Shown here piece after piece: positions 7,963 to 28,148 of a DNA stretch of 41,022 nt. A model generated the notes under the pieces. That model saw nothing but the letters and a program-made list of their open reading frames with translations. It searched no databases and had not been told where the DNA came from. The stretch covers positions 1 to 41,022 of the forward strand of contig JAHLLM010000046.1 in the NCBI GenBank assembly GCA_020444175.1, read 5' to 3'. This DNA is from Desulfobulbaceae bacterium (GTDB taxonomy: Bacteria; Desulfobacterota; Desulfobulbia; Desulfobulbales; SURF-16). Made by a program: the position numbers and the translations under genes. How positions within the stretch are numbered: the stretch's first letter is position 1; every line of letters starts with the position of its first letter.

Positions 7963-8622
7963 ATGCTGTGCTATGATACATGCATTAAATATGCACAAGA
8001 AAAACATTTTTGTCCTCACTGTAACATCAGGTTATCCTGTTGTGAAACACCACCTTTTCACATTGGCGACGGACTCGGCTGGGGAAGTGATGTCATGTTT
8101 ATCTGCTTAAATGATGAGTGCCCTGTTTATGTGAAAGGCTGGGAGCACATTGACCTGCAATATGGTCACAACGGAACATACCGTTACATGCTTTTACCTG
8201 GCGAAAAAAAAGGCGATTTTCTCATGGTGGGAAGCCCGGATGCTTTCACAGGGAGTATCATAGATCCTGAAGCACTTAAACAGCAAAACGTTCGTTATCA
8301 AAACGAAAAAAAAGCTCTTGCTCAGCTTGAAACATGTGTCGAAGAAAAGAATCTCGAACCCGTTCTTGCCCTTATTCTTGACGAAAAGGCAGGTCTTGAA
8401 GGACGATTGAGGTCTTGTAGAATTCTTGCTGAAGTTAATGATCTTAACTGTATTGATTCAATAAGAAACCACGAGTTCAAAAACACTGATGTTGAACAGG
8501 CAGTGAACATGGCTATTATCACCCTGTTAAAAGCAAATTTTAAAAAAGAATGCCCTTATTGTGCTGAAATCATAAAACAGCAGGCCAAAATATGTATGCA
8601 TTGCAATAAAGAGCTTGGGTAA
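7963..8622 (+). CDS. Zinc-ribbon domain protein
   Basis: A 219-aa protein, probably cytoplasmic. The N-terminal part carries Cys pairs (CPHC and CC, then CLNDECP) that look like a split zinc ribbon. The middle (about 100-185) is helical with a HEAT-like look, and the C-terminus has a classic short zinc ribbon CPYC...CMHC (about 197-216) of the UPF0547/double zinc-ribbon type. AAGGAG lies 7 bases before the ATG. I do not know its function; binding of nucleic acid or protein through the ribbons is the usual guess. It stands alone between purM and the tRNA-His gene. Confidence 0.75.
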   Translation: MLCYDTCIKYAQEKHFCPHCNIRLSCCETPPFHIGDGLGWGSDVMFICLNDECPVYVKGWEHIDLQYGHNGTYRYMLLPGEKKGDFLMVGSPDAFTGSIIDPEALKQQNVRYQNEKKALAQLETCVEEKNLEPVLALILDEKAGLEGRLRSCRILAEVNDLNCIDSIRNHEFKNTDVEQAVNMAIITLLKANFKKECPYCAEIIKQQAKICMHCNKELG

Positions 8623-8663
8623 CATACTGATTATAATAATTACTCAGTGAAAAACCATTCATT

Positions 8664-8697
8664 CCGGTTATTTTCGACTTGCTATTACCGGTTTAAT
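8664..8697 (+). terminator. Weak terminator after the zinc-ribbon gene
   Basis: CCGGT pairs with ACCGG about 20 bases later, and a T-rich stretch follows. The stem is short and interrupted, so this is a low-confidence call. Confidence 0.3.
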
Positions 8698-8842
8698 TTA
8701 TTATAAAAATCACACTTTGACAGTTGCTCGAAAATCACGTAACAATCTTTGACGCCTCAACTGTACTATTAAGAAGACGTCGGATATAATCGCTGTTTTT
8801 TTCTTCAACATCATCAAACTTACGCGAAATATTGAATTGTGT

Positions 8843-8920
8843 GGTGAGCGTAGCTCAGCTGGTGGTAGCTCCGGATTGTGGCTCCGGTGGTCGTGGGTTC
8901 AAGTCCCATCGCTCACCCCA
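8843..8920 (+). tRNA. tRNA-His (GTG)
   Basis: Acceptor GTGAGCG (8844-8850) pairs with CGCTCAC, followed by discriminator C and an encoded CCA ending at 8920. The anticodon stem CCGGA/TCCGG encloses a loop with GTG. The extra G at 8843 opposite C73 is the tRNA-His identity element. The T-arm is GTGGG TTCAAGT CCCAT. The 3' part of this gene is the attachment site of the element that follows. Confidence 0.96.
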
Positions 8921-8926
8921 TTTTTT
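8894..8926 (+). repeat. attL: tRNA-His 3' end
   Basis: A 33-bp sequence from the T-arm to the T-run is repeated exactly at 17922-17954. This copy belongs to the intact tRNA gene. Confidence 0.93.
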
Positions 8927-8930
8927 ACCC

Positions 8931-8966
8931 AAGGGTTTCAGGCAATTAGCTTGAAACCCTTTTTTA
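8931..8966 (+). terminator. tRNA-His terminator supplied by the element
   Basis: A 13-bp stem (8931-8943 with 8948 onward; one G-U pair) is followed by six Ts. It mirrors the host version at 17960-17997 beyond attR, so the tRNA keeps a terminator after integration. Confidence 0.85.
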
Positions 8967-9089
8967 TTTCATTATTATTCCCCCCACATTTCCCCCACTT
9001 TTTAATTATCGTTTCACCTATTACCCCTTAAGTCCTTTTATTGTTTTAAGAAACAAATTCCCCTATGCCATCCCTGACACCTAAGCCCC

Positions 9090-9121
9090 AAAAAAACCGG
9101 CCACCATCAGGTAGCCGGTTT
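9090..9121 (-). terminator. Minus-strand terminator at the left end of the element
   Basis: AAACCGGC pairs with GCCGGTTT around a 12-base loop, and on the minus strand it is followed by a run of Ts. It stops leftward transcription, probably from the 75-aa gene at 9467-9694, before the tRNA. Confidence 0.65.
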
Positions 9122-9258
9122 CATTATCAACACCATTGTGTTTTTTCATAGTTTTGGTCAAGGGTCTTTTCTTTCACTATCTTCAAGTCTTGTCCTTGAC
9201 AAGTAAATGGATGGTTGGTTTAGGTTAGATTAAACTCAAATTTTAAAAGGAGCCATCT

Positions 9259-9489
9259 ATGAAAAAAATCACCATGATAGCATCCTGTCTGGTTAACTCC
9301 AGCATGATATCGAGAATGGAAGATGCTGAAAATGCAGTTCGTCAGGCATTTAGTAATGACTTCCCAAACGATAATTTTGACACCTGGAACCAAGAGCTTC
9401 CTGACGATATTGCAAATAAAGTTATTAAAAATGTGGGCAGAGCGTCAAAAATAAATGTAACACGTTTCATTCAGGATTTTTGGGAATAG
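9259..9489 (+). CDS. Small element-encoded protein, unknown function
   Basis: A 76-aa protein starting MKKITMIASCLVNSSMISRM, with AAGGAG 7 bases before the ATG. The N-terminus is mildly hydrophobic, but there is no clear signal peptide. The C-terminal half looks helical (IANKVIKNVGRASKINVTRFIQDFW). It is the only gene of the element on the plus strand. A TTGACA at 9196-9201 could be part of its promoter, although the -10 is poor. Its end overlaps the end of the convergent gene by 23 bases. Lone opposite-strand genes at an island edge are often accessory or defence genes, but nothing in the sequence identifies this one. Confidence 0.6.
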   Translation: MKKITMIASCLVNSSMISRMEDAENAVRQAFSNDFPNDNFDTWNQELPDDIANKVIKNVGRASKINVTRFIQDFWE

Positions 9490-9694
9490 ACCCAATTCCT
9501 TTAAAGTCGTGGTTTATGGTCCGGTTTTTTTTCTTTGCGTCAAACTCCAATGCACTTCTGTCTTTCATGCAAATTGAAACAAAATCATCCAAAAATGAAA
9601 GATAATCGTATGAGCTAGCATCATCGGTATTTAGCCCAGCGCAAAAAACATCATCACCGCCATCATTATTGTTGGTAAATATTTTTATAATCAT
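9467..9694 (-). CDS. Small acidic element-encoded protein, unknown function
   Basis: A 75-aa protein starting MIIKIFTNNNDGGDDVFCAG. GAGGTG lies 6 bases upstream, a good ribosome binding site. It is acidic in the middle (DDASSYDYLSFLDDF) and basic near the end. It matches no family I recognise. It reads leftward after the capsid operon's terminator and overlaps the plus-strand 76-aa gene tail to tail. Confidence 0.6.
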   Translation of the reverse strand: MIIKIFTNNNDGGDDVFCAGLNTDDASSYDYLSFLDDFVSICMKDRSALEFDAKKKNRTINHDFKGIGSIPKNPE

Positions 9695-9749
9695 AGTTAC
9701 ACCTCACTATTGTCAAAATCAAAAATCCCTACAAATTTGTAATAAAAAG

Positions 9750-9800
9750 GCCCCTCTTGTGAAGTGATTTAAAATCACTGTGACCGTCACAAGAAGGGCT
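9750..9800 (-). terminator. Terminator of the capsid operon
   Basis: On the minus strand, GCCCTTCTTGTGA pairs with TCACAAGAGGGGC around a nested AGTGAT/ATCACT hairpin and is followed by CTTTTTATT. It lies about 180 bases beyond the end of the capsid gene. The bases in between (9801-9977) hold GC-rich inverted repeats but no gene I can support. Confidence 0.7.
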
Positions 9801-9977
9801 CCCAGGCCTGCAAAGGAGTTCAGACCATTTGCGTTTTGCTGTGCTCGGGCGAATTACGAAAAGCCCTGCGTGAACAAAGCGCCGTTCCTATCACGCCATC
9901 AGATTGACAAAGAGGGTTTGAGGACACCATTGCCCCGGGCGGCCCCCCATGTCAAAACATGCCGCCACACCATGACA

Positions 9978-11834
9978 CTATGACCTTTCAGCCAAAGTAA
10001 CAGCCCAAGAAAGAGTATCACCATTTTTCGGAGTAATAGCCTTGTTCCAAGTTCCCTGACCATCTACGCGCACAATTACCCTATAATCGGTCATATCTTC
10101 CATCCAACCGGGAGCATTGCTCTTGTCAATAGCAACCTCTTTTCGCAGACCTACTGCGTACTGAGTCCAATCAATAAGAGCAATATCGCCAACTGTTCCC
10201 AATGATTTCATATGCTCAGTAAAAATTACCTCAACACCAAAAATATAAAATTTGCCGTTGCTTTCCTTCAAAACAGGAACATGAGAGCCACCAGTCCCAA
10301 CCGGAATTGAAAGCTGGAGGAGTTGAGGTATTGCAGTCATATTTGCATGCCAGGTTGCGTTTTTGAGACAACGAGGCGCTACCCTAGCAAACATTTGTGC
10401 AAGGTTGCCATAGGTGATAGTGGATCCAAGTTGCCCTGTTTCTTTGGCAACTGTAATGAGTGACGGATTTGAAGAAGACAATGCGCCTTGAGGGCATCCC
10501 GCGCCAGAACCAAAGAAAAACTTGTCATCCAGGCCAAAGCCAACTGAAGAAACCAAAGCATTTTTCAACTGATCTTCAAAGCCAAGCCCATCAGCAGCAA
10601 GTTCGTTTGAAACCTGACAATAGATTGCGCCCTTCTGGGCTTTCAGTTCAATTTTTCGCATTTTGGCTGTCTGGCGTGTGCCTGTCCCTTGTTCAGCCAA
10701 CCATTGCATTTCAAAGCCCCCGTGTGTGGTTCCTCCACTTCTATCGTTACCGTCCCAGCCGGGGACATGCCGGGTGAGAGAGCTCATTGGCCACACTTGC
10801 GCACGGGGACGAACAATTTCATTTTCCAAAGATGAATCAAGCCACTCTGCAGCAAATTCTTCAGGCACAGAAAAGCCGCCCTCCGTGGCAACGGATTCAA
10901 CCATACTTGCCCTAGTGAGCCGGTCATCATAGCGGCTTGAATGGATGACATTTAAAAACTCTTCACCATTTTTAAAGCCACCACGATCAAGGTCTCTACT
11001 TTCGCCTAAATAAAACATGGCCCGATAACTGCGATCCTTACCGCATGGACCGCCACGGGTTTCAATTGTCTCTGAATCTCCGTCTTCATCTCCAATAGAG
11101 TCGGCAAAAGGAACAGGCCCGTTTGTGGTCGCGTTCATGCGTTTTTCAACTGCGACTTGGCCATTATCACGGAAGGTGACAAGGTCATCTCCGAATACTG
11201 CCGGCGCTAGTTCGTCAAAAGCACGCTGTTTCTCATGAAGCTGCAATTTTTCTTCATCGGTTATGGTTTCATTTTCGTCTTTGCTGATAAGGCTGCAAAT
11301 GCTTCTGTATAGTTTCAATAACTTCTGGTCTTTATTCATTATGTCTTTACCTCTTCGGTCATTTTTTTTCTGGTAAGATCGGCCAATTTTGGCATTGGGA
11401 TCTGCTGGAATTGCCACCAATGAAACTTCTAGCAATTGCCATCTTGCAACCCTCATAATATTGCCTTCAAATGTCCGCTTTAGGACTTGATAAGAAACAC
11501 TGACATGCTGCAAAACACCGTCAACAATGTCTTGCCATATCTCGTCAGCACGCGCCCCTTTGCTAACTCGCAAGTCACCCTTTAACGTGCTATCTTTAAG
11601 GGTGATATTTTCCACAACGCCAATCGGTAAATCTTTGTCATTGTGGCTGCAGAGTAACGGAACAGGGGAACGGCTCAGATCAATAGCTTCGTGCCTGTGC
11701 ACTAAAACTTCCTGGCCGTCGTAACGGTCAACTGGAAATTCTGTGCTTAATGTGGCTCGGACTGTGCGCGTTTCTATATTTATTTTTTTCCGGTCAAGCC
11801 TAAACCGGCATTTTGTTTTCTGCGTTTCGTCCAT
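9978..11834 (-). CDS. Fused HK97-type prohead protease and major capsid protein
   Basis: A 618-aa phage head protein. Residues about 10-160 are an S78-family prohead protease: His64 in LLCSHND with the following PIG, and Ser112/Ser114 in the HVSVSY motif, are its likely catalytic residues. A charged linker (about 165-260) leads to an HK97-fold major capsid domain from about 300 to the end (ESVATEGGFSVPEEF, later GSGAGCPQGALSS). Fusion of the two is known in some phages and lets the protease act as scaffold. AAGGAAAA precedes the first ATG. A second possible start, ATG at 11339 with AGAGGT upstream, would make a 453-aa linker-plus-capsid product. No portal or large terminase accompanies it. 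Confidence 0.9.
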   Translation of the reverse strand: MDETQKTKCRFRLDRKKINIETRTVRATLSTEFPVDRYDGQEVLVHRHEAIDLSRSPVPLLCSHNDKDLPIGVVENITLKDSTLKGDLRVSKGARADEIWQDIVDGVLQHVSVSYQVLKRTFEGNIMRVARWQLLEVSLVAIPADPNAKIGRSYQKKNDRRGKDIMNKDQKLLKLYRSICSLISKDENETITDEEKLQLHEKQRAFDELAPAVFGDDLVTFRDNGQVAVEKRMNATTNGPVPFADSIGDEDGDSETIETRGGPCGKDRSYRAMFYLGESRDLDRGGFKNGEEFLNVIHSSRYDDRLTRASMVESVATEGGFSVPEEFAAEWLDSSLENEIVRPRAQVWPMSSLTRHVPGWDGNDRSGGTTHGGFEMQWLAEQGTGTRQTAKMRKIELKAQKGAIYCQVSNELAADGLGFEDQLKNALVSSVGFGLDDKFFFGSGAGCPQGALSSSNPSLITVAKETGQLGSTITYGNLAQMFARVAPRCLKNATWHANMTAIPQLLQLSIPVGTGGSHVPVLKESNGKFYIFGVEVIFTEHMKSLGTVGDIALIDWTQYAVGLRKEVAIDKSNAPGWMEDMTDYRVIVRVDGQGTWNKAITPKNGDTLSWAVTLAERS

Positions 11835-11950
11835 ATTTTTCCTTTTTCTTCAAGCCAGCCTCAAGCGTTCACGCTTACCTATCAATGGTCACATTGGTGT
11901 GGTGCTGGGTTTATTTTTTTACGTTTTTTATCCATAAATGGGTTAATTGG

Positions 11951-12457
11951 TTATTTTTTGGTAAGTTCAGGCCTAAAGTCGGCTGGTTTCAACCGTTTCT
12001 GTTCAGACTTACTCAAAAGACCATATCGCGCCAGAAAAGCCGCCTGTGATTCAAAAATGAGGTTTTTCCCCTTGTCTAAATCCAGAATTTCAGGAATACC
12101 GAAGGAAGATTGAATTTTCGTTTCAAATCCATCTGTGTTTCCTTTACTGGAAATCTGCCAATACTCTTTTTTCATGTTTTTAAGCCGCTGGCCGCCTACC
12201 TGTTTCCTTAACCCTGGTGAATCATACTGCCACCACGCCCAAGGCCTTGACCCTGGGAAGTGTTTTATCCATTCGCGCAACAGTTTATACCTGCAGATCA
12301 ACCAGTGTTTGAAACCTGGATAGCTGAGAAATGAAAATTCATCATGAGGAATCTCTTCTTGGCTCGGCTCACGGCCATGTGAGAGAAAAAAAACATAATG
12401 CGTCTCAATTTCATAATCCGGTTTCCTGCGTTTTATTTGTCGTGGTTTTCTTGGCAT
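11951..12457 (-). CDS. Conserved phage/satellite protein of unknown function
   Basis: A 168-aa basic protein between the small terminase and the capsid gene. Striking residues include HGREP, a Trp/Pro-rich core (GSRPWAWWQYDSPGLRKQVGG, about residues 69-89) and a C-terminal ESQAAFLARYGLLSKSEQKRL. From memory, proteins with this RPWAWW...GG...E.Q..YL.R.GLL pattern occur beside P27-type small terminases in small prophage-like elements; I know no assigned function. It begins 8 bases after the terminase gene ends, so the two are translated together. A role in packaging or capsid assembly is inference from position. Confidence 0.7.
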   Translation of the reverse strand: MPRKPRQIKRRKPDYEIETHYVFFLSHGREPSQEEIPHDEFSFLSYPGFKHWLICRYKLLREWIKHFPGSRPWAWWQYDSPGLRKQVGGQRLKNMKKEYWQISSKGNTDGFETKIQSSFGIPEILDLDKGKNLIFESQAAFLARYGLLSKSEQKRLKPADFRPELTKK

Positions 12458-12465
12458 TTTTTATC

Positions 12466-12783
12466 TCAATATTGACGTGGCGGCCTTGGATCTTCCGGTG
12501 GTATATCAAGCTGCAATTCTCGAATTAACCGAGCAAATAGTATTTTGTTATCGCGTTCAGTCTTCTGCCCCGGATGTTCTTTTGTTTGATTGAACCTGTC
12601 CTTGATATAAGCTCCTTCCTTCTCTACCTCTGCTCTGGCTTCTGTTATCCTGTCCAGGCATTCACACGCAACTTGTAAAATTTTTAAATGGTGCGAATCT
12701 TCAAGCTGAAACTCATTTAAAACTTTCCGCCAAAACCTTTTTCCCTCATTTTGAAGGTGGCTTGCTGCTCTTGGTACTTTCAT
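12466..12783 (-). CDS. P27-family phage terminase small subunit
   Basis: A 105-aa protein that would recognise DNA for packaging and hand it to a large terminase. The helical N-terminal half (EGKRFWRKVLNEFQLEDSHHLKILQVACECLDRI) and the C-terminal half (KDRFNQTKEHPGQK...LIRELQLD) match the P27 small-terminase pattern, in which a conserved pre-HP segment precedes an R-LGLD-like end. GGAG lies 6 bases before the ATG. The partner large subunit is absent from the element, so a helper's large terminase would have to be used. This is consistent with redirecting helper packaging to satellite DNA. Confidence 0.8.
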   Translation of the reverse strand: MKVPRAASHLQNEGKRFWRKVLNEFQLEDSHHLKILQVACECLDRITEARAEVEKEGAYIKDRFNQTKEHPGQKTERDNKILFARLIRELQLDIPPEDPRPPRQY

Positions 12784-12854
12784 TGTTTCTCCAAAATTCG
12801 TATTAAACCGGGTTAATGCGCGTAAAAATTAGGTTGCCCAATCGGTATAGGTTT

Positions 12855-12893
12855 AGTAGGGCTCCAAAAATCTGAGCCCCCCCTACTCACTCC
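12855..12893. other. Hairpin between the small terminase and the 88-aa gene
   Basis: AGTAGGGCTC pairs with GAGCCC and a following CTACT across a 9-base loop with a C-rich bulge. It has no U-run, so it is not a typical terminator. It lies just upstream of the packaging gene and overlaps the end of the 88-aa gene. Its role is unknown. Confidence 0.35.
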
Positions 12894-13149
12894 ACACAAC
12901 ATCCAACAAAAAGCCTTGGAGCTTCATTGCAAGAATTCGCACATCTTTTTTTTGCCAATTGTCAGTAATCGAGGCGATACGGTCTTTGTGCTTCAGATAA
13001 AATTCTTTGCTTGGCTCATGAAGATCCTTCTCAACCTCATCAAGAAAGCCTGGGGCTGTGATTAACAAAGCGAATGGTTGCGCGTATCGTTTCATCAAAC
13101 TGGTTCTCTTTGAATCATCCTTTTTCAGCACTGCCTTTTTTAAATTCAT
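12883..13149 (-). CDS. Small element-encoded protein, unknown function
   Basis: An 88-aa protein, lysine-rich at the N-terminus (MNLKKAVLKKDDSKRTSLMKRY) and predicted to be mostly helical. It matches no family I recognise. AGGG lies only about 3 bases before the ATG, so initiation may be weak. It sits between the iteron array and the small terminase on the same strand as both neighbours, which makes it the first gene after the origin. Replication or packaging accessory roles are possible but unsupported. Confidence 0.55.
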   Translation of the reverse strand: MNLKKAVLKKDDSKRTSLMKRYAQPFALLITAPGFLDEVEKDLHEPSKEFYLKHKDRIASITDNWQKKDVRILAMKLQGFLLDVVWSE

Positions 13150-13227
13150 ATCCCTGAAACATTATTAATGGATTATGAGTATGTTTCTGGCCTTTTGACC
13201 GGATCCAAAATCCGTTTAAAACCAGGG

Positions 13228-13429
13228 AACTGTGGTAAACAGTTTCCCCCCCTATAGGGGACACGGTTACCACGGTTTTTTTATCCTATGATTTCAAACA
13301 CTTAAACTGTGGTAATTCGCCTTTACCTCGGTTTACCACTACCACGGTTATAATTGCTTGAATTAACAGTAAAAAAACTATGGTAATTGCCCTTTACCAG
13401 GTAACTACCACGGTTACCTTACCTCGGTT
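13228..13429. repeat. Iteron array, candidate replication origin
   Basis: Eight copies of an 11-mer with consensus (T/C)TACC(A/T)C(G/A)GTT. Forward copies lie at 13267, 13323, 13339, 13405 and 13419; reverse copies (AACTGTGGTAA or AACTATGGTAA) lie at 13228, 13305 and 13376. A perfect CCCCTATAGGGG palindrome (13249-13260) and an AACTGT/ACAGTT hairpin (13228-13244) lie among them. The array directly follows the primase/ATPase gene, as origins do beside pri-rep genes in phage islands. Confidence 0.72.
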
Positions 13430-13430
13430 T

Positions 13431-15245
13431 TTAGTCCTTAAACGCATAGTAGTTTTTCCTTTGTGAATGGGTTGCATCAGGGATTTCTTTTATTGTTCCC
13501 ATCTGAATAGCTCCGGTTATATATTGCCTTGCCGTCTTGTCCGAACATCCAGACTGCTGCATTATTGCTTCCTTCAATTGCTTCTGCCCTTCTACCTTCC
13601 CCCCCAACTCAAGAATGATTTCTCTCACCCTTCCAGGGGGACACATCACGTCACTTTCAGTAAGTCGATGAAGGAAATTTTTATCCCTTTCTAAAAGTAG
13701 TGGTTTAGGCTCCGGACCATTCCGAACCTTCACATATTCAAGGGTTCTCAAGATCTTATGCTCATGTTTCTTGTGGGTAAGAGCAAGGAGAGTATCAGCC
13801 CAATCCTTGATAGAAGACGCGCCCCTGGTCCGGTAGGCAGTAGCTACACCCTCGCTTGGCTTGCCGAAATGATGAACAACTATGGACGTTGTATTCGTCT
13901 TCCGGCTTATCTCAGTAACGGTATCAAGAATACGCCTCATCTGGACGTTATCATTTTCATTGACGCTGTGTAGGCTTGTGAGAGGATCCCAGATAATCAC
14001 ATCAGCATTGCTTTCTTTTATGAGCTCAAGGGCTAATTCTTTTCCTCTTGAAGTTCCAAGGTCAATTCGCAAAGTCGGTTCAGAGAACGATAGAAGGTCT
14101 GGAAAATTTTCTATTCCAAGGCCTTTGACCATTCGTTTCAGTCTTATGGCTTCAGTGTGCTCAGGATTCTCGAATTGAAAAGTAAATACCCTTCTGGACT
14201 TTGGAATATCCATTCCCAAAAAAGGCCAGCCCATAACAAGATGAAGGGCAAGTTCAAGCCTGAATGTGCTTTTCCCAACCCCGGACTCACCGGCAAGAAT
14301 CATCCCGGCCCCGGCTGGCAATATGCCATTTTCAATAACCTGATCTTGCTTAGAGTATTTCTTGGTCAGCAACTCGATTGCAGGAATAATTCTGCGTGGG
14401 GGGGTCCACAATGGAGTATTTTTAATACAATCAAGTATGGCTTCTTTTGCCTTTTCTCCTGAGTCGAAACGCTTAATAAAATCTGAAATATCTCCTTTTG
14501 AGGGCAAGTCCGGCAACTCAACAACCTTGACAATTGAGGCAACTTTAGAAACGCTTTCTGCCACTTTCTTTGTATGCTCTCTGCCAGGCTCGTCATTGTC
14601 TTGAAAAACGATTACTTCCTTTCCTTTCAAAAAATGGCTTAGTTCATCAGTCCACTTTCCGGCGCCACCTGGGTTACAGGTTGCACAAAAAGAATCTGAG
14701 CCATATAAGTTGTTGCAGTTAATTGAATCTTTTTCACCCTCAACAATGAATATCTTTTGAGCTTTTATAACCCTCGGCAGTTCAAAAAGAACCTTTCGTA
14801 ACCCTGCAGTACTCCACCTCCAGCCGCCATTACCATCTGGCCGCCTTTGGGGAAATTGCTTCTTATCCGTCCGGCATACTTGAAAAAGCAAATTGCCAGC
14901 TTCATCAACGTAGTCATAACTTTTAATTATGTTCATTTTGCTGTTATGGGCCTGAGTAGTAACCTGAGTATTTTCGTTGTCAGCAACCAAACCTTGATCG
15001 ATTGCCCACTGTTTAGCGGTTTTGAAATCACAACCCAAAGAGAGCTTGATAAGGTCGAACGAATCACCGTGTTCTTTGCAGTTGAAGCAATAAAAATTCT
15101 GGTCTTCAAAAAAAATGCTGAAACAAGTTCCACCGTTGCTATCATGACCTGCTGGGCAATTGCCTCCATAAAAACGACTACCATTCTTTTGTTCAGGTAA
15201 ACATCCTAAAACCCTTGCAGTTTCAACAATATCAGGCTTAACCAT
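13431..15245 (-). CDS. Primase/ATPase replication protein (CHC2, TOPRIM, RecA-like)
   Basis: A 604-aa replication protein. An N-terminal CHC2-type zinc finger (Cys30, His34, Cys53, Cys56) is followed by a TOPRIM domain (IVEGEKDS near 167-174 and FQDNDEPG near 214-221) and a RepA-like RecA-fold ATPase: Walker A GESGVGKST at 319-327, Walker B DVIIWD at 415-420, then VVHHFGKP. The C-terminal part looks like a helix-turn-helix segment (SGCSDKTARQYITGAIQMG). It would prime and unwind DNA at the iteron array lying just after its stop codon. Large primase-helicases of this type serve P4-like elements and phage satellites. The ribosome binding site GAGAG lies about 8 bases upstream. Confidence 0.9.
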   Translation of the reverse strand: MVKPDIVETARVLGCLPEQKNGSRFYGGNCPAGHDSNGGTCFSIFFEDQNFYCFNCKEHGDSFDLIKLSLGCDFKTAKQWAIDQGLVADNENTQVTTQAHNSKMNIIKSYDYVDEAGNLLFQVCRTDKKQFPQRRPDGNGGWRWSTAGLRKVLFELPRVIKAQKIFIVEGEKDSINCNNLYGSDSFCATCNPGGAGKWTDELSHFLKGKEVIVFQDNDEPGREHTKKVAESVSKVASIVKVVELPDLPSKGDISDFIKRFDSGEKAKEAILDCIKNTPLWTPPRRIIPAIELLTKKYSKQDQVIENGILPAGAGMILAGESGVGKSTFRLELALHLVMGWPFLGMDIPKSRRVFTFQFENPEHTEAIRLKRMVKGLGIENFPDLLSFSEPTLRIDLGTSRGKELALELIKESNADVIIWDPLTSLHSVNENDNVQMRRILDTVTEISRKTNTTSIVVHHFGKPSEGVATAYRTRGASSIKDWADTLLALTHKKHEHKILRTLEYVKVRNGPEPKPLLLERDKNFLHRLTESDVMCPPGRVREIILELGGKVEGQKQLKEAIMQQSGCSDKTARQYITGAIQMGTIKEIPDATHSQRKNYYAFKD

Positions 15246-15248
15246 GAA

Positions 15249-15377
15249 TCAACTCTCTGAAATTATTGTCAGTCGATCAAGAAACAAACTTGTTGTTCTG
15301 GTATATGGAAAGCGTGTAATAATTGAGGCTGCCAAGGGCAGACTGGCTTTAGCCAATATTTTCTTGAAAGCCTTCAT
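15249..15377 (-). CDS. Possible 42-aa peptide before the primase
   Basis: A short frame starts MKAFKKILAKASLPLAASII, is basic, and ends 3 bases before the primase start. It begins 13 bases after the AlpA-like stop. The AGG is only 2 bases from the ATG. It fills the gap in an otherwise tight operon, but may just be a translated leader for the primase. Confidence 0.35.
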   Translation of the reverse strand: MKAFKKILAKASLPLAASIITRFPYTRTTSLFLDRLTIISES

Positions 15378-15390
15378 AACCTGGAAATTG

Positions 15391-15648
15391 TTATGCCATC
15401 CGTTTTTGGTTTTTGACGTAAACTGCATCGCGTTGTAGCCAGTCCAAAATTGCATCTTTTGGGTATCGAATACCGGCACCCTTCAGCCTGATAAAATCAG
15501 GGCCGGTTCCTTCAAATCTCTTATTGGCAAGGGTCTTTGTTGAACCTGCAAGCCCAAGTTCAACAAGTTCATCAGCAGAATTTAAGGGCTTCAAATTCTC
15601 CGAGATGTTTTCCAAGAAAGTCTTTGTGACTTTAGTTTTGAGTGCCAT
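15391..15648 (-). CDS. AlpA/excisionase-like helix-turn-helix protein
   Basis: An 85-aa protein. Residues about 25-72 (DELVELGLAGSTKTLANKRFEG...RLKGAGIRYPKDAILDWL) fit the MerR-like winged HTH of AlpA and phage excisionases. The helix pair reads a site, and the RYPKDAILDWL end is the usual YxxxDLxxWL closing motif. Such proteins activate satellite or island genes, or promote excision. AAGGAA lies 7 bases before the ATG. It precedes the primase, a common order in P4-like and phage-inducible islands, so it is the best candidate for the induction switch of this element. Confidence 0.75.
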   Translation of the reverse strand: MALKTKVTKTFLENISENLKPLNSADELVELGLAGSTKTLANKRFEGTGPDFIRLKGAGIRYPKDAILDWLQRDAVYVKNQKRMA

Positions 15649-15674
15649 TTCTGGTTCCTTAATTGGTTAAAATA

Positions 15675-15730
15675 AAAAAGCCCCACCGATGGACAACAAC
15701 GCAATGCGATGTACCATCAATGGGGCCTTT
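15675..15730 (-). terminator. Terminator inside the element, before the AlpA-like gene
   Basis: On the minus strand GGCCCCATTGATGG pairs with CCATCGGTGGGGC and is followed by six or more Ts. It separates the ribbon-helix-helix-like gene pair from the AlpA-primase operon. Confidence 0.8.
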
Positions 15731-15767
15731 GGGTAACCGTTGCCGGTCTCGCAGGTATCCCGTTTTT

Positions 15768-15914
15768 TTAGTCTTCGAGTTTTGACTTTGTGTTGACGAA
15801 AACCTGACCTATCCCACCTTGGTTCATATTGATTTCAAGTTGAATCTGGCCAGTGAATTTGTCAGCAATCGCCTTAGTTATCGCTTCAACTATTTTTTTA
15901 ATTTTTGGTGTCAT
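15768..15914 (-). CDS. Small protein after the ribbon-helix-helix-like gene
   Basis: A 48-aa frame starting MTPKIKKIVEAITKAIADKF and ending NTKSKLED. It overlaps the end of the upstream gene by 17 bases, so it may be translated by coupling. The N-terminal half forms an amphipathic helix; the second half looks like a beta hairpin. An upstream in-frame ATG at 15983 would lie deep inside the previous gene and is less likely. Function unknown. Confidence 0.5.
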   Translation of the reverse strand: MTPKIKKIVEAITKAIADKFTGQIQLEINMNQGGIGQVFVNTKSKLED

Positions 15915-16251
15915 TGTCGTCTTCTGGAAGTTCAATTTTTGGAGTCCAGAGAGTGCGAGTTGCTTTATCTGTGATAACATCAATTCCTATGTTCTCACAT
16001 TCGGCAATAAATTTTTTCTCATCCCATTGTTCCTTGTCAGCATTAAAAATGATCCTCGTCAACAGGCGATCAATCTCGGCATCACGGTTTTCAATATTTG
16101 CATGTTTATAGGCCCTATCTAATCGGATTTCAAATGATCCGAGAAAATTTTCGATCATCTTTCCGATCATTACATTCGACTGCTTCGCTCGTACTTTTAA
16201 AAGAGCGTAAGCACCCTCATCCATTTTGATACCAAAGTTTTTAACAGCCAT
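15898..16251 (-). CDS. Ribbon-helix-helix-like protein of the element
   Basis: A 117-aa protein. The first 40 residues (MAVKNFGIKMDEGAYALLKVRAKQSNVMIGKMIENFL) resemble a short strand followed by two helices, the layout of Arc/CopG-type DNA-binding proteins. The rest is charged and helical with no motif I know. It lies between the integrase terminator and the AlpA-like gene, where a repressor of the element would be expected. The regulator reading is inference; the frame is supported by length and by its coupled neighbour. Confidence 0.55.
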   Translation of the reverse strand: MAVKNFGIKMDEGAYALLKVRAKQSNVMIGKMIENFLGSFEIRLDRAYKHANIENRDAEIDRLLTRIIFNADKEQWDEKKFIAECENIGIDVITDKATRTLWTPKIELPEDDNDTKN

Positions 16252-16412
16252 AATTTACACCATCACTATAGTTTTAATTAATTCATTAATCTCAATATAA
16301 CCACAACAAATTTAATTTCAATAGAAAAATTTAATTCTATACCATAAATTCAATTAACTCTAAAAAAACCAGCTCCCACTTTGATCAAAATTTCAGGTGC
16401 AATAACATTTTG

Positions 16413-16450
16413 CACAAAAAAACGGGCCAACCAATTAAGGTCAACCCGTT
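16413..16450 (-). terminator. Terminator of the integrase gene
   Basis: On the minus strand AACGGGTTGACC pairs with GGTTGGCCCGTT (three G-U pairs) around a 6-base loop, followed by eight Ts. It lies about 90 bases after the integrase stop. Confidence 0.8.
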
Positions 16451-16537
16451 GATATCGCGCACTTATTACTAAAACTATATTCGACTAGAAACGGTTAAAA
16501 CCCGTCTTCCAGTCTACAAAATGTAATTATTTTTCAT

Positions 16538-17764
16538 TCATCCAGGAAATGAACATATTTTTTCTTCACCTAATTCCTCTCTTTTTTGGTTGAAGGTAGC
16601 TGCCATAGCCTTGACTGCATCCTGCTTATGATCCGGTATTAAATGGCTGTATCGCTCTGTCTGCGTAATCGTCTTATGCCGGGCAAGCTCTTTTATTGTA
16701 TAAAGTGGAGTTCCTTGAATTGCCAACCATGAACAGAAAGTGTGACGCAAGCTATGAAAAACAACTCTGTATCTGCGGTCTTGTGCATCGATATTGTCAT
16801 TCAGGCCCATGTCAAAAACTGTTCTTTTGAAAGTATCGCTAACTTTGTATTGCCTCCCCCCGTCCTGTCCCTGGAAAACATAATCGTCAAGACTTGAGTT
16901 ATCCTGAATCCGATTCAAGAGCATTTCTTTCACATTATCAGTCATGAAAACCTGCTGGCTCTCCCCGGCTTTTGTTTCCGGTAAATGAATGATGTTCTGC
17001 TTGAAATCAACATGCCCCCATTTCATGTCAAGGATTTCCCCGGCCCTTAATCCACACTGAAGCGCCAGTAATGCCTGATCATGGGTTTGAGGGGAACGCT
17101 CGGATAATTCTTTTAAAAGCTCAGAGGCTTCTTGGTGACTTAGAAAACGCAACCTTCTATTATTAACTTTCGGGAAACTAATTTTTGATGTCGGAATGTT
17201 CCCTTGGAAGTGGTCCCACGCAACAGCTTTTCTAAAAATGGAACGAATCAGGGTAAGACAGTGATGAACAGTTTTTGGAGATAATCCCTTTTTGCTCAGA
17301 TCTCTTTTGAATCTTTCAAGATGAAGAGGTGAAATGTCTTTCAACGGCAAATCAGCAAAAGCCGGTTTCAAATGATTATTGTACCTGCTCAAGTGGCTTT
17401 TTTTTGTGGAGCCTTTGACAGTTTTAAAATACTCTTCAGCAACAGTCCCGAATGTGATATTAATTTTTTCTTCATACTCCTGTTGCTGCTTTTCTTGCTC
17501 CTGCCGTTCAAGCTCCATTTGCCTCATTTCTTTGATAGACTGTGGTCGTTTCCCTAGCTTGATATTGTCCACAATGACGGATCTTATTTTTGAAGCTTTT
17601 AAGGCATTCATCCCCCTAGACCACCTACCGGCAGACTCATCTATTTTTTTTCCATCACGCCAATAACGAATATAAAAGGTTCTATCTGGTTTGCCGTTAT
17701 GTTGCCTAGTGGTATGTTCAGTGTATCTGATATCTGCGTATTGGGTTTTTACCCATCCACTCAT
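16538..17764 (-). CDS. Tyrosine integrase of the tRNA-His element
   Basis: A 408-aa P4-like site-specific recombinase that would integrate and excise the element at the tRNA-His 3' end. The catalytic residues are all visible: Arg240 (GLRAGE), Lys265 (ETKAGES), His337 and Arg340 (HSLRHTF), His363 (ARHKTI) and the nucleophile Tyr372 (ERYSHL). A SAM-like core-binding domain (about 105-185) and a charged coiled segment (about 75-102) precede it. I place the start at 17764 (MSGWVKTQ) because GGAGGT lies about 7 bases before it; a start at 17785 has no such site. The gene begins about 160 bases from attR, the normal position for a tRNA-targeting integrase. It is intact. Confidence 0.93.
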   Translation of the reverse strand: MSGWVKTQYADIRYTEHTTRQHNGKPDRTFYIRYWRDGKKIDESAGRWSRGMNALKASKIRSVIVDNIKLGKRPQSIKEMRQMELERQEQEKQQQEYEEKINITFGTVAEEYFKTVKGSTKKSHLSRYNNHLKPAFADLPLKDISPLHLERFKRDLSKKGLSPKTVHHCLTLIRSIFRKAVAWDHFQGNIPTSKISFPKVNNRRLRFLSHQEASELLKELSERSPQTHDQALLALQCGLRAGEILDMKWGHVDFKQNIIHLPETKAGESQQVFMTDNVKEMLLNRIQDNSSLDDYVFQGQDGGRQYKVSDTFKRTVFDMGLNDNIDAQDRRYRVVFHSLRHTFCSWLAIQGTPLYTIKELARHKTITQTERYSHLIPDHKQDAVKAMAATFNQKREELGEEKICSFPG

Positions 17765-17921
17765 AACCCACCTCCTTTCCCCCATATTTCCCCCATATTT
17801 CGAGATACACAGGGAAACAAAGTGATTTTTTCATGTCGCGAAACGTTATGAATTTAATGTAATATCAGACAATTAAGAAGTAAAGTGATTTTTGAGGAAA
17901 AGTAAGGAAATTATTAAAAAT

Positions 17922-17954
17922 TGGGTTCAAGTCCCATCGCTCACCCCATTTTTT
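17922..17954 (+). repeat. attR: duplicated tRNA-His 3' end
   Basis: Exact 33-bp copy of 8894-8926 without the 5' part of the tRNA. It marks the right end of the element. Confidence 0.93.
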
Positions 17955-17959
17955 TACAT

Positions 17960-17997
17960 AAGGGATTCAGGCAGATAGCCTGAATCCCTTTTTTTGT
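17960..17997 (+). terminator. Original host terminator of tRNA-His
   Basis: A perfect 13-bp stem AAGGGATTCAGGC/GCCTGAATCCCTT with a 5-base loop and seven Ts, directly beyond attR. It was displaced from the tRNA by the insertion. Confidence 0.85.
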
Positions 17998-18017
17998 CTG
18001 AGCTATGCAAAAGACTT

Positions 18018-18115
18018 AGCAGGCTTTTGAAAAATGTAACAAGTACCCTAAAGGGCATAAACTATGCGGAGACAAGGATTTATGCCCTCGCAGTAGTTTT
18101 TCAACAGCCTGTCAG
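18018..18115. repeat. Dispersed hairpin repeat, copy 1
   Basis: Begins AGCAGGCTTTTGAAAA and ends GCAGTAGTTTTTCAACAGCC plus TGTCAGG, with a nested GGGCATAAA/TTTATGCCC hairpin. The two ends pair imperfectly and match those of the copy at 36957-37012. It looks like a small mobile or regulatory repeat. Confidence 0.65.
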
Positions 18116-18444
18116 GTGTCATCAATAGTGTCAACACATTGCCCTAATATCTCTTCTCAAGACCTCCCTTAAAACTGTCCTCTGAATCTTATCTACATCA
18201 TGACCACCCGGGATGTCCTTCCCGCAGTGTGTGATTATAAGGGATACAAACAAAAATCCATGCGACAATTTGCCATCTACCCAATGCTAATAAATAGTAT
18301 TATTTTTATTATCAAATATAAATTACGTAACAAAAGTTCTGCTTCCTTTTACACTGGTCTATTTTTAATACCTTGGCAGATTAGCAACATAACTCTGTTT
18401 GGTTTCATCAAAAATCAACCTTCTAATTACCTCGTAATATTAAT

Positions 18445-18750
18445 ATGATATACCACGTACCTTCTTCAGTCCTTTTAAAGACAAGCAAATGCCAACACAA
18501 CTTCTCATGTCTCCAAACAGAAAACAAGAAATGTCCCGGTAACTGTGAATCTCTCGATGGCGTTATTGGTGAAACTATTATTCCGCTGAAAAACAAGGAA
18601 GAAAATCCTTCCTGTCCCTACCGTGTTACTGCCTTTGATTTTCAAATGTGCACTTGTCCGACATATATAGCACTTCATCAACAAAAGCATAAAAAGTCCC
18701 TCTCCCCTGAAAAAGAAAACAACAACACTTTTCATGTGAATCCGGGATAA
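18445..18750 (+). CDS. Small Cys-rich protein
   Basis: A 101-aa protein starting MIYHVPSSVLLKTSKCQHNFSCL. Seven or more cysteines fall in pairs: C-x4-C near 16-21, C-x3-C near 30-34, then CPYR and CTCP near 57-71. From memory, small proteins with the pattern VPSS...SKC...FSCL...CPYR...CTCP occur in other Desulfobacterota, which makes this more credible than a chance frame. The pattern suggests a metal or Fe-S site, but no function is known to me. There is no clear ribosome binding site. The remaining stretches 18116-18444 and 18751-19162 show no gene I can support. Confidence 0.6.
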   Translation: MIYHVPSSVLLKTSKCQHNFSCLQTENKKCPGNCESLDGVIGETIIPLKNKEENPSCPYRVTAFDFQMCTCPTYIALHQQKHKKSLSPEKENNNTFHVNPG

Positions 18751-19162
18751 TTTCTGCATTATATCAGGCAACAACCTCACCCCTCAAGGCGCACCTTCCC
18801 ATCTGCGCTCTTTATCCTGCTCCTTTTACTTATCATTGGCATACTTTATCTTGTATATTTTTTTATCTTCTCCTGAACCAGTGGAGTATGAATTGTCAGA
18901 CATATTGACTCTACTACCCCTTTATTTGTCATAGTTGATTTTAACTAACCGGACGTTCACTTCTGTAGCAACGTCGCTAAGATACTTTACACTGCCAATT
19001 AAGCTCCCTATAAATTTTTCCCATTTGCTTTCAGCGTTTCAGGCATCAATGTTTTTTTCTCACCCACGGTCAGTTTTTTTCTGCTATCCTATTTAAACCT
19101 TATTAACCATTAAACGAAGCACTTCTCAAACACGGTTTTCACTTAATACTATTCTTTAGTCG

Positions 19163-19180
19163 TTGAAGAATATTCTTCAA
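19163..19180. promoter_or_regulatory. 18-bp perfect palindrome upstream of the copper-efflux operon
   Basis: TTGAAGAATATTCTTCAA is a perfect dyad centred 126 bases before the GTG start of the first efflux gene. With no loop it fits a dimeric regulator's operator rather than a terminator. It does not match the CueR or CusR consensus closely. No regulator gene is next to the operon. Confidence 0.5.
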
Positions 19181-19297
19181 AACATAAGTATCACCAACAA
19201 AACTTTCCAACGGAACAACTTGATTTCACAGGATTTATAAGTTTCGGCATCAACTTTGCACAGTAGTATTTGAAATCTTTTCATAAGGAGAGAAACA

Positions 19298-20587
19298 GTG
19301 AAACATCTTGGACATCTCGTTCTTACTTTTATTTCGTTTACCTTATTGAGCCAGGGAGTGCTCTGTGCAGCGGAAAATCAAGATAGTTTCGTTTTGGACA
19401 ACCTTGTTAAAGAAGCACTCACCAACAATCCGGAATTAAATGCTGCAAAAGACCGCTGGAAGGTCTATGAAAACAAAATCGTTCCAGCCGGTTCACTGAG
19501 TGATCCAACCTTTTCCTTTTCTTTGAGCAACTATCCGGTTGACACCTTTCAGGGCAATGAGTTTGCCATGAGTGGCAAGATTTTAAAACTTGCGCAAAGT
19601 TTTCCTTTTCCCGGCAAACTTTCTGCCCGCCGGGAAATCGCCACTGAACAGAGCAAATGGTTCAAGGCGGTATGGAATGAAGGAAGACTTCAATTAACAC
19701 GTTTTGTCAAAGATGCGTATTACCTGCTTTATTATTACGACAAGTCCATTGCCATTACCCAAAAAAATCTGCAGCTTTTAAAGGATTTTACACGCCTCAC
19801 TGAAACGAACTACGAAGTTGGTAAGGGTCTGCAACAGGATGTTCTGAAAGCTCAGGTGGAGCATTCCAAATTGACGGATCGGCTTTTTAATTTGAGCCAG
19901 CAACGGGATTCGAATCTTGCCGAGCTGAACCGGCTCCTCAACCGTCCGACATCAACACAGATAGAAAAACTGGATGATTTTGAACCTGTTGATATCAAAA
20001 TAAGTCTTGCCGATTTACAGGAAGATTCCCAGATAAACCGGCCAATGTATGCGGCCTATGATTCGCTTATAAACCGCTATAAAGCTGAAAAAAAGCTGGC
20101 TCGTCTTGATTACAAACCGGATTTTAAGGTTGGTCTGGCTTATAGCTTTCGGGAATCCAACCCTGCTGATGGGGGAACGGATTTTGCCGGACTTGAATTT
20201 TCCATGAACCTTCCGATTTTTCAAAAAAAGCGTGATGCTGCTGTTGCTGAAGCAGACTCGGGTCTGCGCATGGCCTCAAAGCAGTACGACGATTTTCAAA
20301 ACAAGGTTCATTTCAACATTCATGATGCCTATACACAGGTGAAAAAAAACTTTGCCCAGGCCCAACTCTACAAAAGCGGCATTATCCCCCAGGCACGCCA
20401 GGTCCTCGAAGCTTCCATCAGCAACTATCAAGTAGGAAAAGTAAACTTTTTCTCGCTTCTTGATAATTTCATGACCCTCTACAACTATGAAATGGAATAC
20501 TACAAAGTATTGACAGATGGGCAAAGGAACATTGCTCGCTTAGAAGCAGAAACAGGCCAGACAATGAGGCAAGATATGGGTCTCTGA
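19298..20587 (+). CDS. TolC-family outer-membrane channel of Cu/Ag efflux (CusC-like)
   Basis: A 429-aa outer-membrane efflux protein. A signal peptide (LVLTFISFTLLSQGVLCAA) is followed by the two repeated helical/barrel halves of the TolC family, with typical segments ALTNNPELNAAKDRW and GLAYSFRESNPADGG...FSMNLPIF. The start codon is GTG, supported by AAGGAG 7 bases upstream. It would provide the exit duct for the exporter encoded behind it; the adaptor gene follows after 38 bases. Assignment to metal efflux comes from the neighbours. Confidence 0.9.
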   Translation: MKHLGHLVLTFISFTLLSQGVLCAAENQDSFVLDNLVKEALTNNPELNAAKDRWKVYENKIVPAGSLSDPTFSFSLSNYPVDTFQGNEFAMSGKILKLAQSFPFPGKLSARREIATEQSKWFKAVWNEGRLQLTRFVKDAYYLLYYYDKSIAITQKNLQLLKDFTRLTETNYEVGKGLQQDVLKAQVEHSKLTDRLFNLSQQRDSNLAELNRLLNRPTSTQIEKLDDFEPVDIKISLADLQEDSQINRPMYAAYDSLINRYKAEKKLARLDYKPDFKVGLAYSFRESNPADGGTDFAGLEFSMNLPIFQKKRDAAVAEADSGLRMASKQYDDFQNKVHFNIHDAYTQVKKNFAQAQLYKSGIIPQARQVLEASISNYQVGKVNFFSLLDNFMTLYNYEMEYYKVLTDGQRNIARLEAETGQTMRQDMGL

Positions 20588-20625
20588 TGTCAGGTACGTT
20601 TTAATTTTAAGAATCAGGTATAAAA

Positions 20626-22122: not shown

Positions 22123-22173
22123 TCAATCGATCCGACGATTATCCTGTTTAACAGGAATAAATGAGAAACCGAC

Positions 22174-25100: not shown

Positions 25101-25410
25101 CAAAAATAAGATGTCCACCAGAGCGGACCTGACTGAGGCAATTCATCATGGAGCGGTTAAACGCATTCGACCAAAGGTGATGACTATCTGCGTCATTATC
25201 GCCGGCCTTCTGCCCATCATGTGGAGTCATGGTGCCGGGGCGGATGTCATGAAACGCATTGCCGCCCCCATGGTTGGCGGAGTTGTGACCTCAGGAATCA
25301 TGGAACTGATGGTGTATCCTGTTATTTATTATCTCTGGCGAGGGCGGTCTCTCAAGAATTCCCTTCCCACTGATGCAAAGTCGACTGTAACCCAAACAAT
25401 AAAGGAGTAA
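22174..25410 (+). CDS. CusA/CzcA-type heavy-metal RND transporter, probably Cu(I)/Ag(I)
   Basis: A 1078-aa inner-membrane proton-driven pump of normal length. Twelve membrane helices with two large periplasmic loops fit the profile: an N-terminal helix (MVILMTIFLIAAGLHAV), SIVVALVTALFLFHLP, and GGIAIAIGAMIDAAIIMIENAHKHFE with the TM4 acidic residue. The segment WTMPIKTRIDMLSTGIKTPVGIKVMG is typical of the copper/silver branch and contains the methionine used for metal binding in CusA. It follows the adaptor by 51 bases and precedes a Met-rich protein by 4. Metal specificity is inferred from motif and context; zinc/cobalt pumps are the main alternative. Confidence 0.94.
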   Translation: MLEKIIHWSIRNKFMVILMTIFLIAAGLHAVRQTSIDAIPDLSDVQVIIFTEYPGQAPQVVEDQVTYPLTTQMLAVPHSKVVRGYSFFGFSFVYVIFEDGTDIYWARSRVLEYLNYATGKLPRGVSPSLGPDATGVGWVYEYVIESDHHDLQQLRSIQDWYLRYELAAVNGVAEVASIGGFVKQYQVAIDPDRLLAYHITLPQIRNAIKKSNNDVGGRLVEMGETEFMVRGLGYFQSTKDIEQVVVGTDKKGTPILLKDIAQVNIGPELRRGAAELDGTGETVGGIIVMRYGENALEVIENVKKKIESLKAGLPEGVTFKTVYDRSGLIERAVNTLKEKLIEESIVVALVTALFLFHLPSALVAICTLPIAILAAFVIMNIQGINANIMSLGGIAIAIGAMIDAAIIMIENAHKHFERDRGKKPHWDIILDSAKEVGPTLFYSLLVITISFLPIFTLQEQSGRLFKPLAFTKTYAMAAAAFLSVTLVPVLMGFFIRGKIKPETANPVNRLLIRLYHPVVDFVLKWRKITLLIAFALVLSIAWPVSRMGSEFMPPLNEGDLLYMPTTMPGISITKAKELLQQTDRIIVSFPEVERVFGKIGRAETATDPAPLSMLETTITLKPESEWRKIPISRFYSDWPDWTSQAQKILQRIFPEEKPISQDALIDELNNAIQFPGLTNAWTMPIKTRIDMLSTGIKTPVGIKVMGDDLNILNRLGEEIEAIVKPLPGTLSAYSERVVGGNYLDFVIDRAAAARYGLTVGDVQDIIQSAIGGMNVSQTVEGLERYPINIRYQQDYRNDLPSLNRVLIPLADGTHIPISQVATIKITKGPPSIKSENARRTAWVYVDIKGIDVGTYVKQAQQAVSEKIALPPGYSIVWSGQFEYMEAAKKRLIVIIPLTILVIFTIIYLNTKSLIKTAIVFLAVPFSLVGAFWFLYLLGYHTSVAVWVGLIALAGLDAETGVVMLLYLDISHQKWKDKNKMSTRADLTEAIHHGAVKRIRPKVMTICVIIAGLLPIMWSHGAGADVMKRIAAPMVGGVVTSGIMELMVYPVIYYLWRGRSLKNSLPTDAKSTVTQTIKE

Positions 25411-25414
25411 AACA

Positions 25415-25912: not shown

Positions 25913-25971
25913 CAGCTCATTGTGGGGGAGGACGGCGGACTCTGTGTCATGCGCCCTCCCCTACTCCCGGT

Positions 25972-26995: not shown

Positions 26996-27018
26996 AGCAA
27001 CACACAACCATCTTCAGC

Positions 27019-27993: not shown

Positions 27994-28148
27994 GACAAGG
28001 AAAAAGGCCGTAATAAGAAAAAATAAACTGGCAGAAAGTCCTGTAACTGACCATCCGCCAATGTAATATCATAAATTATGCACGAGTCGACGGTGACTGA
28101 GTGTTTTTTTTTTGCGAAACCGTTACAGTTAACAAAAAGATATGGAAA

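Follow-up and report, generated by a model that had tools for sequence, protein, structure and literature searches.

A compact candidate phage satellite in a tRNA-His gene of a Desulfobulbaceae bacterium, carrying its own small terminase and protease-capsid fusion and apparently dependent on a borrowed packaging motor

The DNA analyzed here (the window) is one contig of 41,022 nucleotides (41 kb; JAHLLM010000046.1) from the 5.4-Mb genome of a Desulfobulbaceae bacterium (GCA_020444175.1). It carries an integrated element of 9,028 bp (9.03 kb) that looks like a genuine and intact phage satellite rather than debris, with a mechanism that we infer below. The element is flanked by an exact 33-bp direct repeat that starts inside a tRNA-His gene, and a 25-base core of this attachment (att) repeat, with up to 3 mismatches allowed, occurs twice in the window and in none of 100 shuffles. 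The open reading frames (ORFs) of the element were compared with Pfam, PHROGs and NCBIfam (each comparison took 10 proteins, the sets being slightly different). Those genes to which a function could be assigned are encoded on the minus strand, arranged as integrase, AlpA-like protein, primase-helicase, small terminase subunit (TerS), a 168-aa protein referred to as p168, and protease-capsid fusion, with small ORFs of unknown function between them.

8844..8920, plus strand: tRNA-His(gtg), the integration target (ARAGORN)
8894..8926, plus strand: att repeat, tRNA side, 33 bp, exact repeat formed by the 3' end of tRNA-His and a T run
8931..8961, plus strand: terminator-like hairpin with a 13-bp stem, probably element-borne
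9259..9489, plus strand: 76-aa ORF of unknown function, weak Pfam and NCBIfam matches only
9467..9694, minus strand: 75-aa ORF, phrog_23433, a phage family of unknown function (E-value = 1.8e-12)
9978..11834, minus strand: prohead protease (S78)/HK97 major capsid fusion, 618 aa (PF04586, PF05065, TIGR01554)
11951..12457, minus strand: p168, 168 aa, TerS-linked, homologous to the N-terminal domain of some large terminase subunits (TerLs) by alignments and profile searches
12466..12783, minus strand: TerS, P27 type, 105 aa (family matches and homologues)
12883..13149, minus strand: 88-aa ORF of unknown function, no family in the three library scans
13431..15245, minus strand: primase-helicase, 604 aa, with CHC2 zinc finger, Toprim and AAA_25 (phrog_239, 4e-50)
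15391..15648, minus strand: AlpA/excisionase-like small DNA-binding protein, 85 aa, weak matches (phrog_2528, 4e-4; HTH_17, 0.12)
15898..16251, minus strand: 117-aa ORF of unknown function, no significant family in the three library scans
16538..17785, minus strand: tyrosine integrase, 415 aa (PF00589, 5e-28)
17922..17954, plus strand: att repeat, distal copy, exact, 33 bp
17960..17990, plus strand: terminator-like hairpin with a 13-bp stem, 3' of the distal att, probably the chromosomal tRNA-His terminator

In the integrase, the R, H-x-x-R, H and Y positions are conserved, presumably in their customary roles. Both parts of the fusion score above cut-off (PF04586, 1e-6; PF05065, 3e-29), and the protease part aligns with relatives across the His and Ser regions, which we take to be conserved functional residues. 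TerS was matched by phrog_83 (7e-6), TIGR01558 (2.5e-6) and PF05119 (4.8e-5), the Pfam and NCBIfam scores lying under the curated cut-offs and the homologues supporting the assignment. The AlpA-like ORF stands in the same slot as those of the relatives, as judged with a profile that included the window protein itself, and p168 has no significant family in the three libraries. PADLOC matched the primase to two DnaG-like models over about 50-60 residues; a component of a reverse-transcriptase system was considered and rejected, the match being read as a shared primase domain. The same tool gave no match for p168 or for four small ORFs. Repeat search and family scans confirmed what an earlier sequence-only reading of this DNA had listed, namely att repeats, an intact integrase, a replication module, a small terminase and a protease-capsid fusion. 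It had also reported no TerL, portal, connector, tail or lysis gene, and none was matched among the ORFs scanned. Specifically, TerL and portal gave no match in the three libraries or with our own profiles, tail and lysis genes none in the libraries, and head-tail connectors and HNH endonuclease none beyond a chance-level phrog_333 match (E-value = 0.18) on TerS. The statement that the coding space is filled proved loose, with accepted ORFs covering 7060 of the 8995 bases of the element.

Concerning the insertion site, a genome of the same genus (G001, locus L068) shares the upstream gene (protein 76.7% identical) and tRNA-His, followed directly by other chromosomal genes, which match window positions 26228-29707 (by eye, from the ORF list). 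The site is thus empty in G001, and the window has a second, separate insertion past the element. This stretch (18000-26200), between the element and the genes shared with G001, holds TolC-like, adaptor-like and RND-pump-like ORFs, named by eye. The 50-nt stretches at the two att copies are 82% identical. Since similar hairpins follow both copies, the element seems to carry a spare terminator that replaces that of tRNA-His; terminator-like sites as a class are not more frequent than in shuffles.

Recurrence of the set without TerL and portal had been fixed beforehand as a test of the satellite reading, and the element passed it. TerS and capsid without detectable TerL or portal are found in 10 complete elements of 8.1-11.4 kb, the window's included, capsid presence being among the criteria by which they were selected. 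Six of them lie in tRNA genes:

Window: tRNA-His, att 33 bp, 9,028 bp
L037: tRNA-Arg, att 48 bp, 9,289 bp
L039: tRNA-Met, att 49 bp, 10,089 bp
L058: tRNA-Arg, att 64 bp, 9,669 bp
L045: tRNA-Arg, att 40 bp, 11,360 bp
L085: tRNA-Leu, att 41 bp, 8,114 bp
L051: contig with a direct terminal repeat of 119 bp, 10,934 bp less repeat
L094: contig with a direct terminal repeat of 144 bp, 10,320 bp less repeat
L081: contig with a direct terminal repeat of 123 bp, 8,571 bp less repeat
L097: contig with a direct terminal repeat of 127 bp, 8,059 bp less repeat

The last four are probably circular, because they end in direct repeats of 119-144 bp. By profile, TerS was detected in all 10 elements, integrase in 9, p168 in 7 and the AlpA-like protein in 7, with TerL and portal in none. 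The capsid was found by profile in 9 and by phrog_2263 (5e-55) in L097, and the capsid gene of L094 spans the contig ends. With one exception, a 396-aa frame in L045 without a PHROG match, each ORF of roughly 350 aa and upward encodes an integrase, a replication protein, a capsid or, in L045 only, a tape-measure-like protein; the short ORFs were scanned in part. The capsid search covered 395 genomes of the phylum and matched 15, the window's own included. Ten regions were fetched afterwards, from 7 of the 14 other matched genomes and one from a search of 58 relatives (left out: G209, G212, G414, G463, G474, G501 and G511). The latter search gave three capsid matches, again with the window's own, and its G021 locus was left out. 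Among the fetched regions, L036, L037, L038 and L039 are islands in which integrase and capsid were matched but TerL and portal were not, L036 having a different TerS-like gene (phrog_18735, 0.006). L035 and L041 resemble capsid-forming phage-inducible chromosomal islands (cfPICIs) and have a protease-capsid fusion, TerL and portal; L035 sits in tRNA-Arg (TerL, phrog_9, 1e-146; portal, phrog_12, 1e-115). By eye, L040, L042 and L044 resemble the head modules of ordinary prophages; the L043 contig measures 3.9 kb. Reduced islands of this kind also occur in other bacteria and among virus sequences from the environment, and the element looks like a real phage parasite.

The capsids of these islands have a mixed history. 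The window fusion is 43.9% identical over 611 aa to the 566-aa fusion of L035 and groups with it (95/98) in a 24-row capsid tree, near L036 and cassettes of Acetivibrio; some rows are long-branched, L046 most of all. Nine satellite capsids need 8 label changes on this tree, at least 6 of them forced by well-supported branches, and their clustering does not exceed that of shuffled labels (389 of 500 shuffles were as low). This scatter indicates that satellite capsids come from several lineages and were taken up repeatedly. The capsids of cfPICIs are likewise reported to have arisen three times (PMC11389934). The integrases are mixed too, as the identities to the window integrase are spread from L059, L037, L058 and L036 (36-39%) to L039 (31%), L051 (29%), L035 and L041 (27-28%) and L045 (23%). 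Among 50,697 phage records, none of the 100 matching ones covers 80% of the window fusion. The Acetivibrio mesophilus contigs (L002-L006, also L007-L010) carry a repeated cassette between RHS-like and other ORFs, with several copies in a single genome. It consists, with names given by eye, of a 130-aa protein, a primase-like protein of about 733 aa, a capsid, a 101-aa protein and a transposase-like protein. Its capsid is 53-57% identical to the window's, and inspection by eye showed no TerS, TerL or portal.

Tycheposons and virion-encapsidated integrative mobile elements (VEIMEs) are marine integrative elements, some with satellite traits. The cfPICIs encode capsid, protease, portal, connectors, TerL, TerS and HNH and borrow only tails (PMC10690885). 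The element shares with them integrase and att, a replication gene, TerS, an HK97 capsid and a protease, and differs in that TerL, portal, connector and HNH, four cfPICI parts, were not detected; its nearest full-length capsid relative (L035) resides in a cfPICI-like island. With Gram-negative PICIs it has in common a site-specific att, a tyrosine integrase, its own primase and its small size; for the AlpA-type regulator of such islands, the 85-aa protein gave weak matches only. Among these PICIs, PmCI172 reportedly has a homologue of the major capsid protein (PMC6092414). EcCICFT073, by its annotation, has integrase, regulator, primase and a single capsid gene with no TerL or portal annotated. 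It differs from the element by a decoration gene, by having no TerS annotated and by needing the helper's TerS, and it gave no match to our p168, TerS, capsid, protease, TerL or portal profiles. Deletion of its capsid homologue c1499 affected neither transfer nor interference (PMC6092414). In the cos-type Staphylococcus aureus pathogenicity islands (SaPIs) such as SaPIbov5, an island-borne HK97-fold capsid homologue without a portal is present, as in the element. This protein, Ccm, forms the pentamers of T=4 shells and co-assembles with the helper capsid, and alone it forms no capsids (PMC5052747, PMC8569155). Its delta domain is shorter than that of its helper, the region before the shell domain having 87 residues against 128, and no SaPI protease was identified (PMC8569155). 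Of terS, the cos SaPIs with Ccm retain just the 3' part, and they have a phage cos site; the element differs from them by the PF04586 protease fused to its capsid. A satellite capsid without motor and portal is therefore not new in itself, as Ccm, PmCI172 and EcCICFT073 precede it. In the literature searched, satellites with TerS and capsid and without TerL and portal were not found described, and neither were the TerS-p168-capsid set, p168 (itself not a search target) or a protease-capsid fusion in such a setting. The proposal of a distinct, more reduced class is fair when set against cfPICIs, but PICIs that have a lone capsid homologue had been described before.

Whether the element builds its own shell, as the sequence-only reading held, can be argued both ways. 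The fused protease makes an own small shell plausible, while a lone satellite capsid can co-assemble, like Ccm (PMC8569155), or be dispensable, like c1499 (PMC6092414). We consider an own shell and co-assembly about evenly balanced. In a co-assembly model with direct precedent, the satellite capsid would take pentamer positions in a mostly helper-made shell, forcing a small head and closing no shell alone, as described for SaPIbov5 Ccm (PMC5052747, PMC8569155). It agrees with the fact that 8 of the 10 complete elements show no protease in the profile or PHROG scans made. It is disfavoured by the region before the shell domain, which has 118-157 residues in 7 of the 8 other satellites measured (73 in L046), close to the 114-154 of nine unfused phage rows, so that most unfused satellite capsids lack the shortening seen in Ccm; for the window and the other fusions this length depends on the cut chosen and provides no test. 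In addition, a fused protease would be redundant with a helper shell, and the island of the sister capsid has its own TerL and portal. We keep such a remodelling role as a serious competing explanation, somewhat less likely than not.

The TerS-p168 pair was searched with a three-row and then an eleven-row p168 alignment. Both gave 5 loci in 4 of the 395 phylum genomes, the window's included, and the three-row alignment gave 8 loci in IMG/VR, or 6 after merging L047 with L048 (100% identical over 6148 bases) and L050 with L051 (99.7% over 4076). p168 stands alone in 10 of the 11 distinct loci, and in all 10 TerS ends -2 to 14 nt before it, with the p168 start codons picked by the analyst. TerL was detected in none of the 10, a portal in one (L049) and a capsid in seven: the window, L038, L039, L058, L045 and L051 by profile and L046 by phrog_617. 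L049 and L052 are short contigs. In L049 (1233-3860, on a contig of 4.3 kb) TerS, p168, portal and prohead protease are consecutive with no TerL between them, and this locus is perhaps intermediate between the TerS-p168 group and cfPICI-like islands. A complete island bounded by att repeats of 24 bp (L059) has TerS-p168 and no capsid, pointing to TerS-p168 as the core and to the capsid as optional. This island (about 8169-15980) has a HIRAN-like ORF, seen by eye, at the tRNA end, which matches a PADLOC candidate (PDC-M03B, 3e-10). Tape-measure-like proteins occur on two TerS-p168 contigs, at L045:8058-9323 (phrog_9483, 7e-15) and L052:6667-7509 (phrog_8462, 2e-17). The ORFs scanned there gave no further recognisable tail gene, and such satellites perhaps set their own tail length. 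Three consecutive ORFs at L052:5035-6633 resemble prohead protease by eye, and the protease profile did not match them.

IMG/VR was also searched with a four-row TerS alignment that used no p168 sequence. All its rows came from TerS loci beside p168, so that the sample leans toward p168 loci, and one locus (L046) was already known. It gave 27 loci, 11 of which have a stand-alone p168 right after TerS (L046, L077, L080, L082, L085, L092, L094, L095, L096, L098 and L100), the weakest matches being those of L096 (7e-5) and L095 (2e-5). Neither TerL nor portal was detected in any of these 11, and 8 gave a capsid match (7 by profile, L046 by phrog_617). The other loci comprise five with TerL (L075, L076, L084, L088 and L093), by a profile of three sequences iterated once, and 11 with neither p168 nor TerL, numbers too small for a strong test of mutual exclusion between p168 and TerL. 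Outside these alignments little was retrieved. Three p168-domain queries (window, L039 and the N-terminus of L047) found nothing by tblastn in the 50,697 phage records, and 72,556 plasmid records likewise held no match to the window p168. The window TerS gave only two weak records (one phage) and the L037 TerS none. Single-sequence scans of IMG/VR with p168 or TerS found no relatives, the alignments doing better, and with the primase they found 4 distant loci. Order-level p168 searches matched 1 of 193 genomes around the window, 1 of 24 around G541 and 1 of 85 around G370, each being the centre genome itself.

Two loci relate p168 to TerL. L047 encodes a 740-aa protein with the whole p168 domain (E-value = 1.9e-15, both signature motifs) and a TerL ATPase from residue 260. 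On the 92.9-kb contig L084, a 694-aa TerL lies 3 nt after TerS, its residues 40-72 match the p168 core (8e-6), and genes for portal, a weakly matched protease (6e-4) and capsid follow. The motif is absent from the other TerLs examined (L075, L088, L093, L035 and L041). Judged by homology and gene order, p168 fills the TerL slot in the satellites and corresponds to the TerL N-terminus in some phages. Taken together with its position after TerS, these two proteins make p168 look like a detached TerL docking domain. The TerL of phage lambda binds TerS via its N-terminal part. That p168 serves as a TerS-TerL adaptor, as fusion and position suggest, is nearly an even call. A profile match of p168 to PDB 8fje chain 'E8' (0.0017) consisted of a short motif repeated four times, none significant singly, and was taken as chance; the AlphaFold model of p168 gave no PDB fold match. 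Alternatively, p168 could be an interference protein like the SaPI Ppi, a TerL mimic that sequesters helper TerS or blocks helper TerL. Its resemblance to the N-terminal part of some TerLs would fit, and packaging interference proteins are a known satellite strategy (PMC6739421). Stand-alone p168, in turn, directly follows the satellite's own TerS, in the slot that TerL has in the phage contig L084, which suits a TerS partner better, and we find interference rather unlikely.

The element, its ends, its gene set and the recurrence of that set are established at the level of sequence, and on this basis we propose the following mechanism. Infection by a helper phage would induce the island, leading to excision and replication, and the satellite TerS would mark the satellite DNA. 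The satellite capsid protein with its own protease would make or dominate a small shell around the helper portal. As a detached TerL N-terminal docking domain, p168 would let the satellite TerS engage the helper TerL, and the helper would supply this packaging ATPase/nuclease as well as portal and tail. That the element is a satellite with a borrowed motor is very likely in our judgement. The fuller statement, an intact satellite with its own integrase, replication module, TerS and protease-capsid that takes TerL, portal and tail from a helper, is probable. We put forward tentatively the wider idea of a widespread satellite group with a split terminase, in which TerS and p168 would be the defining core that plugs into foreign motors, an interchangeable capsid would be captured repeatedly for an own small shell, and motor, portal and tail would be left to the helper.

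Several observations weigh against these proposals. As to a helper, the own genome has no PF04860 portal, no PF03354 TerL and no PF03237 TerL, the only three families tried (they match in 4, 3 and 6 of 14 control genomes, respectively), and the window capsid has one match there, with no second relative. p168 is rare (4 of the 395 sampled phylum genomes, including the window's own), its match in L084 spans only 33 residues, and the AlphaFold models are weak, with a predicted local distance difference test score of 61.5 for p168 (7 sequences) and 40.4 for the capsid fusion (8 sequences). In L049, TerS-p168 occurs together with a portal, and L059 indicates that the capsid is not obligatory. Among the complete elements, p168 was undetected in L037, L081 and L097 and integrase in L094. 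A protease was found in just two of the ten (the window, and L094 by phrog_53) in the scans made. Finally, the C-terminal part of the L051 capsid also matches a separate 47-aa ORF in another frame, and the gene may be frameshifted. At L051:3861-5365 the capsid gene is followed by this profile-matching ORF, and the same holds in L050.

Some of these points would also agree with a capsid gene that is vestigial or accessory and plays no part in transfer. The c1499 deletion without effect in EcCICFT073 (PMC6092414), the capsid-free L059 and the possible frameshift near the end of the L051 gene speak for this; capsids of several lineages are present in 10 of 10 complete elements, the window's intact, which makes it improbable, capsid being however a selection criterion. 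Least probable is a decayed prophage or cfPICI that lost its TerL, portal and tail genes and is now inert: TerL and portal are still present in the cfPICI-like island that holds the closest full-length capsid (L035), and the three tested helper-part families are absent from the own genome, but the att repeats, integrase, primase, TerS, p168 and capsid are full length versus relatives, no tail or lysis gene was matched among the ORFs scanned, and the same small gene set is found again, with unrelated capsids, in other genera as well as in terminal-repeat contigs. The sequence-only reading had named a full head-tail module at this site in relatives, or no recurrence, as signs of decay, and neither was found, the TerL and portal of L035 being the nearest approach.

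Apart from its own biology, the element fills the space between satellites whose only action is to redirect packaging and those that assemble complete heads, and it offers a testable idea of how a satellite TerS may recruit a foreign motor. If p168 is indeed a free TerL docking domain, it would be a tool for dissecting the TerS-TerL contact, and a satellite shell reliant on the portal of another phage would test how strict capsid-portal matching is. The TerS-p168 pair can also serve to search for satellites that may escape tools based on known families.

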